From NCBI GenBank assembly GCA_023078555.1, contig CM041196.1, positions 3,534,001-3,598,000 on the forward strand: a stretch of DNA of 64,000 nt, given 5' to 3'. The translations under genes were made by a program, and so were the position numbers. Below, one piece after another: positions 20,019 through 36,687 of this stretch (the stretch's first letter is position 1; each line of letters begins with the position of its first letter). Source of the DNA: Ulva prolifera (lineage: Eukaryota; Chlorophyta; Ulvophyceae; Ulvales; Ulvaceae). The notes beneath the pieces are model-generated. The model did no database searches, was not told the origin of the DNA, and saw nothing but the letters and a program-made list of their open reading frames with translations.

Positions 20019-23000
20019 ATGGCACATGTCGTGCAAGGCAGGCGTGGCAACCACCCGCGCGTCAAGCGTGTGTGGCGGCGTGCAGAGTACGACTGCACTG
20101 CTCGTGGCTCAATCCCCGGAGCCGACCAAACCGCACGACGCCGTGAGTGGGCAACGCTGGCACAGTTCCCGGTGGCTGCTGCTGCCGCCGGGAATGCGTG
20201 CAGTGCGGCCTTGCTCGCCAAGCGCGTGCACAACGCCCGGGTGTGGCTGCTCAATCCCGCCCGGCGGCGACCTGTTGCGCACGCAACGCCGACGCGCGTC
20301 GTCATCACCGACGGCAGCGGAGAGCAGGAGGTCGTCGTCCGTATGTCAGAGTACGGCGAGGCATGGTGTGAGGGGCTCCCCCCTGCTGACGGCGCCGTTC
20401 CTGCAAGGGGAGACGGGCAACTGGTTGCTGGCGACCGCACACCAGGCATGCATGCGGCCACGGTGATCCTGCACTGTGTCCAGGGAGCGATGCAGTGCAC
20501 GCTCTCGCCGCCAATGCCAGGGGGACGGGCTGCACGCGCACGTGGGGTGGGAAGAAGTGGCGGCATCCTGCGTGCGGCGTTTGTTGCCGTTCATCGAGCG
20601 AGGGAGGTGTTCGAGTTGCGACGCGCGGGCGCTGCAACGGCTGCGAACCCGCGAGCCGCGGCTGGCACATGCCAGGAGCCAAACGAGGACGAGGACAGCT
20701 GCGGTGACGTAGCCACGGCCATCATCCTGCCGTGGCACGGGGACTGGCCTGGCGCCGATGTGAAGCGCATGCGATTGAACGAGGAGGAACCACGCGAGGT
20801 GGAATCCATGCAGGGGGACGGTCCTGCAGAGATCGATGTGCAGACGTTCGGGAGGCTGCGCGGAGGAGGTGACGCCGGAGCATCTGAATGGCGGCAAGAG
20901 GAAGTGTGGCATGAGGAAGCCTTAGAAGAGCCTGAAGATGCGATGCCACTCGAACCACCGCCGCATGCGCAAGGCGCTGGCAAAGGCCTCACTGCGGTTT
21001 CCAGTGAGGATCTTCGGCAAGAGCTGCACCGGAGGTTTGGTGGCAGCGGCGCGGGAGGGAGCGACACCCATATTGATCCGACAACCCCTCAAGGCGCCAT
21101 GGGTGCAGGCGTCGCATCACCGGGATGGGGTCACATGGCGGGGGGTTTTGTACATGACGTGCCGTCGGTGGAGATGGCGTGGGACGGCTTCCGTTACGTG
21201 CCGCGAATGGTGCCTCGGTTCGTGGGATTGCACGGACCCCCATGGAACGCGCACTGCAGTGCGTATGGGCCTGAAGTGGCCCCAACGCTGCACGGCGGCC
21301 CATGGGGGCAAGGGGGTGGCTATCCCGCCGTCGACCGGGCTGGCTGGCATATGGGCCCGCCACTCGACGCTGGTGCCGCGAGCGCAAGCGGTGGCAGTCT
21401 GGCCGGCGGGTTCAGCACTCCGGGGCCCGCCCACTACGCACGACCGACGCTATCGGGGGTGCTCCACGGCACACCGCAGCATGCCCCCTACCCCCTGTGG
21501 CCCGACGCAATGCCGGTCCCTGGCAACTTTCCGGGCACACGCCACACATATTTTGGCGCACCTCTCCCGAGCCATATGACGGTGCGCCCGGCGCCATCAG
21601 GGCCCAATGCATGGCCGCAACACGGCTATGGCGATGCCTTTCGAGGAGCAAGCGCACGCCCCCACGGCATGCAAGCCGAATCTGTGGGCCGCAATGTCAG
21701 GCACGCCTACAGGTTCCGCCCTAGTGGCATGTCTGTAGAGAACCTCTCACACGAGGTGGCCTGTGCGGGGGATACGAGCAGGCAGGAGTGCACGCGGGCA
21801 GCGCGTGTTGCACACGACGCAGTTCCTGAAAGAGATCAACCTGCGGGCGGCAGTGGGGAGGACCCCTCAACTGTGGCACCAGCGCAGCCTGTGCCACGCC
21901 AAGCCATCACATCGACCACGCACAGCCTGGTAAGGATCGCCAGCAGCTCGTCGGACAACAGCATCGAGGGCAGCCAGGCAGACGGCGCTGCAGCCACCCA
22001 GCGGGATCAGTCCATCGAGGCCGAACCTGGTTCTGATGCCCACGGCAAGCAGCGTGTTGTTGTTACAGGCAACAGGCAACAACCGGAAGCAACGACAGTA
22101 CCGACAGAACGCAGGGCGCGTGGCGCCAAAGGCAGGAGGGCGCCGCGTGGACTCTCAGCGAACGAGCTCACGAAGGTGCTAAAACTGAATGATGACATGC
22201 GGTTTTCTGAAAGCAGGGGGAAGCTCATTACCAGCGAGATATCCAGCCCTCCCGATGGTGACGCTGAGCCTGGCCCGGCGCCCCAGCCACGCTCTGCAAG
22301 GGCCGCTTTGATGGCGAAGTTGGCGAAGCGGGCCGCAATGAAGCGCCAAGGTGAGGTGGGTCCGTCGGCAGCAGCCGCGACTGAAGCGACTCCAACACGA
22401 CAGCAAACGCCTGCTAAGGCGACCGCAACCGTTGCGGTCATCGAGGATCGGCGCGCCAGGGACATGGCAGCATGTGCCCGCGGCCCCCCTGACCCGCTCG
22501 TTGCAAGGGCAGCAAAGAAGGCTTCCACGGGGCGCAAGAGGCCAGCCACAACAGACGCGGCTGGCGGGAAGCCACGCACTAAGGCAGCCCGTGTGCATCA
22601 CGCGTCGGACGGATCCATGGTACATGCCGTGTGGCGTGGCCATACCAAGGGAGCGCGTCTGCGCAGTCTCGAGGGTACAGTTGCAGCACAGGCAACGAGC
22701 ACCGCCGTTGAGACTGTCCCGCAAGATGCCCCTCCAGGCGCGATGCCGGGAGGCATCACACCGCGGCCTGCCCATGTCAGCCCGATGCAGGCGGGCGGTG
22801 CACACAAGCAAGGCAACACCAGGCCGGCATCGGATGGCGGGGATGCGGCACAGCACGAGGCTGAGGCGGAAGCGGAAGCAGCCTGGCATGACGCCATCGG
22901 TGAGGAGGAACCCGGCAGCGACCCAGGCTGTGAGGACGCTGACGTGTCACCGGAGATGCGATCCCTGCTGGTCCTGCTTAGTGACCCTGCCAATCACAAA

Positions 23001-36687: not shown

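Follow-up and report, generated by a model that had tools for sequence, protein, structure and literature searches.

A 16.7-kb spliced gene in the green alga Ulva prolifera is probably the principal gene of an autonomous mobile element, a giant tyrosine-recombinase transposon that encodes one very long protein and has a companion gene, ORF2, upstream. The gene lies in the window, by which is meant the whole 64,000-nucleotide stretch analysed here (C1:3534001–3598000 of an 88.9-Mb genome in 44 contigs), and is referred to as copy B alongside two further copies, A and C, present in the same window. A Rubisco small subunit gene on a 12.7-Mb contig of this genome has PDB chains 9hvm, 1ir2, 1uw9 and 1gk8, from Chlamydomonas Rubisco, as its best matches, in keeping with a chlorophyte host. 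From N to C terminus the predicted protein consists of a poorly conserved start, a recombinase-like domain, tandem zinc modules resembling the SBP domain and a superfamily-1 helicase. The element is best read as a new superfamily of recombinase-encoding transposons. Coordinates of the features are given in Table 1.

Exon borders of copy B were set by comparison at each border with copies A and C, a diverged copy on contig C2 (copy C2) and L023. The resulting frame runs from an ATG at 20019 to a stop at 36685–36687 and comprises 11,835 nt encoding 3,944 amino acids with no internal stop, and all 15 introns are of the GT..AG type. This bears out a preliminary description of this DNA in which 16 exons were joined in phase, although the protein is six residues longer than the 3,938 amino acids given there. 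Exon order, start and frame persist in copy C2 despite an identity to copy B of 27% over 3,061 residues aligned by spliced alignment. A start pattern MAHxVQGRRxxHPR is common to copies A, B and C2, the start of copy B, MAHVVQGRRGNHPR, being kept in A and taking the form MAHFVQGRRMHHPR in C2; searches with exon 1 of copy B gave no domain. Nine of the ten copy B introns in the range aligned to copy A, which is 71% identical in the recombinase exons, occur at an identical position and phase, with the tenth falling where copy A is cut. Under GT-AG, nine introns of copy C2 and four of copy C were placed at the exact position and phase of those in copy B, whereas 39 random dinucleotide pairs averaged 0.33 such introns for either copy and never exceeded 3. 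When 20 dinucleotide pairs were ranked by total alignment score, GT-AG came first for copies A and C. Because diverged copies keep introns, order and frame, the presence of the recombinase and helicase parts in one gene is well supported at the level of genomic sequence. Very long (GT)n runs were observed in three introns of the giant gene (window approximately 23125–23676, 27062–27454 and 31431–31701).

Nonsynonymous substitution (dN) was lower than synonymous substitution (dS) in the stretches tested, and comparison of the copies shows purifying selection on the giant gene. The signal was clearest in the recombinase exons (dN/dS of 0.198/1.012 for B–A and 0.070/0.504 for B–L023) and in helicase exon 14 (0.102/0.527 for B–L003), and weaker in exons 15–16 (0.573/1.042 for B–C); in the exon-13 linker dN was saturated at 0.977.

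The front domain is a probable tyrosine recombinase, as judged from its conserved residues. An R-K-R-W-Y core had been proposed at residues 1243–1466 and these positions were found to be right: R1243, K1287, R1426, W1455 and Y1466 are all invariant in copy A, L030, L031 and copy C2, where 67 of 305 alignment columns are invariant. The chance of all five being invariant in this set, compared with other residues of their own kind, is approximately 0.005, as a product. The catalytic series R-K-(H/K)-R-(H/W)-Y is present in order, the H/K place in box II being occupied by R, S or K. When the distant relative D described below was added, 25 of the 305 columns stayed invariant, R, K, R and W among them, with the Y of D one residue further on. 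Box I of D reads AGLRTTFFQYWRWRDVEL, closely resembling the pattern usual in recombinases, and the two introns found in the recombinase region of D are at the positions of those in copy B, in phase 0.

The C-terminal part of the protein likely belongs to helicase superfamily 1 on the basis of its motifs. GPPGSGKS, LDEV, QYRM and VALTR start at residues 3292, 3386, 3487 and 3860, so that the motifs described earlier at 3286–3858 are present but had been numbered about six residues too low. Motifs I, II, III, IV, a motif-V-like stretch and motif VI are kept across ten tabulated rows, except that motif VI is seen in nine of them and in the C2 row falls beyond the alignment; motif II reads LDEV in four rows and LEEV in six. 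Pfam matches to the helicase exons all fell below cut-off (AAA_25, E 1.9e-4; AAA_19, E 8.4e-4; AAA_30, E 0.028; also AAA_22), and helicase searches of NCBIfam (two sequences) and PDB returned nothing useful or relevant. Upf1-like helicases share QYRM and VALTR, and the enzyme may be of the Pif1, RecD or Upf1 type; the Pif1/RecD-like helicase first described thus stands as a superfamily-1 enzyme by its motifs, whereas for the Pif1/RecD family there are sub-threshold Pfam matches only.

Exons 9–10 encode the zinc modules. Neither these nor ORF2, the additional copies in the window or the relatives lacking a helicase had been noticed in the preliminary description. The SBP profile PF03110 matched exon 9 at 24.5 bits (E 3.3e-5), with other scores of 22.8 and 22.5 bits, all below the cut-off of 27, whilst in the genome search two copies scored above it at 27.9 and 27.4 bits, the former being the exon 9 match of copy B. 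A C..C..C-x2-H pattern occurs five times (two overlapping) against a shuffle mean of 0.27, a count reached in 3 of 2,000 shuffles. Between copies B and C the zinc region conserves 33/39 cysteines, 6/14 histidines and 200/518 other residues; the corresponding values for B and C2 are 29/49, 7/20 and 133/702. The genome also contains true SBP genes, and host SBP frames have the same finger layout.

Copy counts, which are lower bounds, amount to at least 40 helicase-exon matches with the copy B query and at least 47 with the C2 query, and at least 57 and 58 recombinase matches for exons 2 and 5, respectively. With pieces merged, exon 5 was present upstream of the helicase on the same strand, at 1–13 kb, at 28 of 39 helicase places, 7.5–9.1 kb away in 25 cases, compared with 6/39 downstream and 1/39 on the opposite strand; seven of the 39 places are 22-residue matches, and without them 22/32 have an upstream exon 5. 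Of the 58 exon-5 rows, 23 are on small contigs and 35 on large ones (two being pieces of one copy), and all 35 fall within seven stretches summing to approximately 0.94 Mb of the genome. These stretches were defined from the same copies and the contrast that matters is therefore that with reverse transcriptase, for which they contain 5 of the 150 scored RVT_1 matches (452 candidates). None of these 150 matches lies in the window and the exon pieces had no Pfam match to a reverse transcriptase; with none found in the element, a retrotransposon reading was rejected. A reading of the clusters as centromeres, suggested by their compactness, was kept as a lead only, because contigs C4 and C6 each have two clusters of the copy B family and C6 has one of the D family as well. 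A separate observation concerns copy A, the exon 10 protein of which (window 8054–9943) is identical to that of copy B over 630 residues while the recombinase exons are approximately 71% identical, which points to gene conversion or recombination between the copies.

The relative termed D (C2:10.853 Mb) is 25% identical to copy B in the exon-5 stretch and has 27 matches of its own, likewise grouped. D copies on contigs C2, C6 and C9 are approximately 98% identical over a total of approximately 11 kb, with defined end points. Those on C2 and C6 begin with TTGTCGTGTCATTTTAAT and do so inside kin-gene coding sequence at two different places, the C6 copy abutting exon-5-like sequence (blastn) and the C2 copy exon-3-like sequence (by eye in translation), whilst the 5' side of the C9 copy is truncated at another point. 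The 5' terminal motif, GCACTTA-GAG...GTCGAA..CGCGGTGC, has similar counterparts where the C2 copy is interrupted by additional sequence and also elsewhere on C6, occurring five times in all stretches scanned and not in the window. No target duplications were found for D. The target of the C6 copy could not be rejoined, since the right flank does not continue the gene of the left flank, and neither a target duplication nor a clean insertion is therefore demonstrated there. Frames of the C2 copy contain no P-loop, two pattern hits lying elsewhere, and D clusters gave no helicase match except B-like fragments at C6:5866914 and C1:12115568. The recombinase-zinc part thus appears, from these loci, to exist both with and without a helicase.

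Copy number, clustering and the nested insertion of D support a mobile nature for the element, as far as genomic sequence can indicate. A host gene family enlarged by segmental duplication would also be under purifying selection and would account for the copies on C1, which belong to a 49-kb tandem unit with 99% identity. Such a family is nevertheless a very improbable source of subfamilies diverged down to 27% identity on several contigs, of many truncated copies and of the nesting of D.

A number of observations weigh against the interpretation as a recombinase-helicase transposon, and the first group concerns the front domain. Most recombinases have H in box II, in place of the R, S or K present here. 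A Phage_integrase (PF00589) profile search, a check proposed in the preliminary description, was made exon by exon across the whole genome and gave no match; Pfam gave no family for four members of the recombinase domain or for D; PDB profile searches with the recombinase region gave one irrelevant match each; and a PHROG search gave one family without a name (E 0.22). Alignment by hhalign to 81 XerD sequences gave E values of 0.06 to 0.38, scores that were equalled in 25/200, 82/200, 41/200 and 31/150 column shuffles. With residues conserved and every profile test failed, the domain is held to be a probable, not a proven, recombinase, and the core proposed earlier keeps its residues without profile support. 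These failures would be expected if R, K, R, W and Y were present by chance and the element were moved by another enzyme, for example a KDZ-type transposase acting in trans, with the present protein a helicase-based accessory factor; a weak match to CxC6, a KDZ-associated cysteine cluster, in one of four sequences tried (E 0.1) points the same way. That explanation is unlikely, if worth keeping in view, given that residues named from one copy proved invariant in four others, four of them also in D, and that D has the box I already noted.

Other points against the transposon interpretation concern the union of the two enzymes and the route of spread. Six of the ten helicase rows have LEEV for LDEV and QRRL for QYRM. 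GT-AG ranked only fourth of 20 pairs by total score for copy C2, so that its introns are singled out by the position-and-phase control and not by the total-score control. At 11 of the 39 helicase places no recombinase exon was found upstream, and some helicase copies outside the clusters have none (C3:2710182, C3:4406186, C1:12115568 and C6:5866914). In the window, copy A is a front half only, its exons 11–16 not being found there, and copy C a rear half only, its recombinase exons not being found there. Together with a C2 intron of 1,144 bp, the longest between the two halves in that copy, these places and half copies are what would be seen if a Crypton-like recombinase transposon lay beside a separate helicase gene and the 16-exon model had joined two or more genes. 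We regard this as improbable. Introns between the halves hold position and phase across diverged copies, the joined frame has no stop, and the intron between exons 10 and 11 measures 131 bp in copy C and 206 bp in C2, which would hardly accommodate the end of one gene and the beginning of the next. The 811-bp spacer of copy B, with its long GT repeat, is accordingly a repeat-swollen intron, and it was from intron conservation that the two-gene reading was held less likely.

No helicase was seen in D, so that this way of life does not depend on one, a further argument against the proposed transposon. Comparison of copies also did not reveal ends of the copy B family, the C1 copies being segmental duplicates that carry internal deletions, and neither attachment (att) sites nor target duplications were found for the family. 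The start of the tandem unit (12643–14474, continued to 16436) recurs at C1:3615039–3619159; the stretch matching 16437–35538 is missing there, and sequence that matches from 35539 on follows immediately. Recent spread of these near-identical C1 copies may therefore be due to recombination, not transposition.

For the recombinase-helicase element that we favour, we infer a scheme in which the zinc modules would bind the ends of the element or its targets and the recombinase would cut and rejoin DNA through a covalent link at Y1466. The DNA would move, probably as a circle, without reverse transcription, and the helicase would unwind it, allowing a copy to be made and copy number to rise. If the element preferred its own kind as a target, and unequal recombination between copies came afterwards, the clusters would result. 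The preliminary description had suggested a distinct transposon class from the recombinase-helicase fusion; the joined gene and, through copies and nesting, a mobile nature were recovered, whilst ends and mechanism were not found. A fuller proposal is that of a new transposon class with a fused tyrosine recombinase and replicative helicase, copy-making movement, self-targeting, chromosome-specific clusters (perhaps centromeric) and zinc modules of common descent with the plant-specific SBP factors, which would make the DNA-binding domain of those factors transposon-derived. As a joint claim this is speculative and doubtful.

Little can be assigned to the neighbourhood of the giant gene. ORF2 has no Pfam match and a conserved core of approximately 85 amino acids. 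Forty of its 41 matches are in or within approximately 10 kb of clusters or on small contigs, the other being at C7:412234, and none are listed in the C4 and C5 clusters. Its strand relative to the giant gene is the same on contig C2 and opposite on C1 and C6. Open frames at window 40205–41601 (minus strand) show a cysteine-histidine pattern, for which Pfam gave nothing useful and which presumably resembles the SWIM finger of MULE-type transposases; long frames at 46424–49501 (plus strand) belong to no known family.

Table 1. Features of the giant gene, its copies and relatives. Positions are those of the window unless a contig (C1, C2 and so on) is named.
Feature	Position	Strand	Description and basis
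Giant gene, copy B	20019–36687	+	16 exons, 3,944 amino acids; gene model, borders compared with copies A, C, C2 and L023; spliced alignments; decoy control
Copy B exons 1–5	20019–23002, 23763–24291, 24396–24704, 24771–25096, 25723–26011	+	
Copy B exons 6–10	26160–26505, 26619–27049, 27563–27776, 27876–28393, 29138–31001	+	
Copy B exons 11–16	31813–32106, 32279–33138, 33372–34223, 34449–35134, 35229–35675, 35802–36687	+	
N-terminal region, exon 1	20019–23002	+	Conserved start MAHVVQGRRGNHPR
Tyrosine-recombinase-like domain, exons 2–5	23763–26011	+	Motifs and alignment; no profile match
Catalytic-type residues	R1243 24609–24611, K1287 24807–24809, R1426 25850–25852, W1455 25937–25939, Y1466 25970–25972	+	
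Conserved stretch of unknown fold, exons 6–8	26160–27776	+	Kept in A, partly in C2 (tblastn, spliced alignment)
Tandem SBP-like cysteine/histidine modules, exons 9–10	27876–31001	+	Best SBP match 28022–28213; finger count, cysteine conservation
Stretch of unknown function, then alanine-rich linker, exons 11–13	31813–34223	+	Kept in C, partly in C2
Superfamily-1 helicase (likely), exons 14–16	34449–36687	+	Walker A at 34506; motif table, sub-threshold Pfam, P-loop scan
Copy A, second giant-gene copy	1–10138	+	End of exon 1 to exon 10; 5' part in L135, L046, L047
Copy C, diverged	52652–59410	-	Exons 10–16; 43% identity over joined range, 51% in helicase part
ORF2, companion gene upstream of giant gene, divergent	16602–17384	-	No known family
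ORF2 homologue	11206–12159	-	Same stretch precedes copy A in L135, L046, L047
Tandem unit, 49.2 kb	12643–61842		12643–14474 recurs at 61842–64000
Short interspersed repeat, ~120–290 bp	25156–25339, 31069–31355, 10006–10128, 60382–60674		First two inside copy B introns
Seven exon-5 stretches (Mb)	C1 3.5–3.8; C2 1.85–2.1; C4 1.06–1.11, 6.85–6.88; C5 3.3–3.5; C6 1.80–1.85, 7.6–7.8		
D copies	C2:10.847–10.866 Mb (L137, L138); C9:1.043–1.061 Mb (L141, L142); C6:5.816–5.834 Mb (L143, L144)		Recombinase-like residues and cysteine clusters

A recombinase by itself has no obvious means of increasing its copy number, and a helicase on the same protein would provide one. If this interpretation is true, the element would found a new superfamily of recombinase-encoding DNA transposons, one that routine annotation would miss since Pfam does not recognise it. 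The SBP-like modules suggest a testable account of how a family of plant transcription factors arose, with a parallel in the ALOG domain, which has been traced to DIRS-type recombinases (PMC3537659, excerpt). The clusters are candidate repeat-built chromosome landmarks in a green alga.

Several known systems share part of this organization. SBP transcription factors of green plants have the same C-x4-C..C-x2-H and C-x2-C..C fingers (CHVPGC..CDDH and ERFCQQCSRFHAVHEFEGDRRSC in host SBP frames), whereas here several degenerate modules stand in tandem inside a transposon protein. The fungal Starships are likewise giant and moved by a tyrosine recombinase, but their recombinase had no Pfam match here. 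The Starship captain protein is not known to carry a helicase. The Zepp and ZeppL long interspersed elements of Coccomyxa and Chlamydomonas resemble the present element in nested insertion and compact clusters (PMC8226300, excerpt); they are retrotransposons, and in the present genome contigs C4 and C6 each carry at least two clusters. DIRS, PAT and Ngaro elements share the tyrosine recombinase and differ in their reverse transcriptase, none being found here; PAT-like DIRS have been described from Chlamydomonas and its relatives (PMC8226300, excerpt). Helitrons also encode a very long single protein with a helicase, over 1,500 amino acids in the case of RepHel (PMC6431247, excerpt), and differ in having a Rep in place of the recombinase-like domain; neither Helitron families nor the HUH Rep domain had a Pfam match in the exon pieces.

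Polinton-like viruses encode the same enzyme types, and both are reported among them (PMC4642659, excerpt). The gene could accordingly be a remnant of such viruses or of virophages, some with a tyrosine recombinase and others, or the same ones, with a superfamily-1 helicase. This origin is highly unlikely: in the portion of that source consulted each enzyme has a gene of its own, in genomes that also carry capsid and packaging genes, whereas here there is one spliced gene, no capsid or packaging match was found in Pfam among the 10 flanking frames scanned (picked from a longer list), and IMG/VR viral contigs gave no confirmed relative, scans with both profiles yielding 24 and 37 pattern hits of which none was confirmed.

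The closest comparison for the favoured transposon is with the Cryptons (CryptonF, S, A and I), which are also moved by a tyrosine recombinase, lack a reverse transcriptase and combine the recombinase with a DNA-binding domain in one protein, this domain being GCR1_C for CryptonF (PMC3212892, excerpt). Cryptons have 5–6-bp terminal direct repeats, and the word "helicase" is absent from the main text of that paper (PMC3212892, excerpt). In the literature covered, which for the most part did not include subscription papers and preprints and so gives no proof of absence, no single protein with both a tyrosine recombinase and a superfamily-1 helicase was found. In Cryptons the recombinase is the sole enzyme on its protein; the present element differs in having a 16.7-kb spliced gene with SBP-like zinc modules and, in exons 14–16 of the same frame, a superfamily-1 helicase on the same protein.

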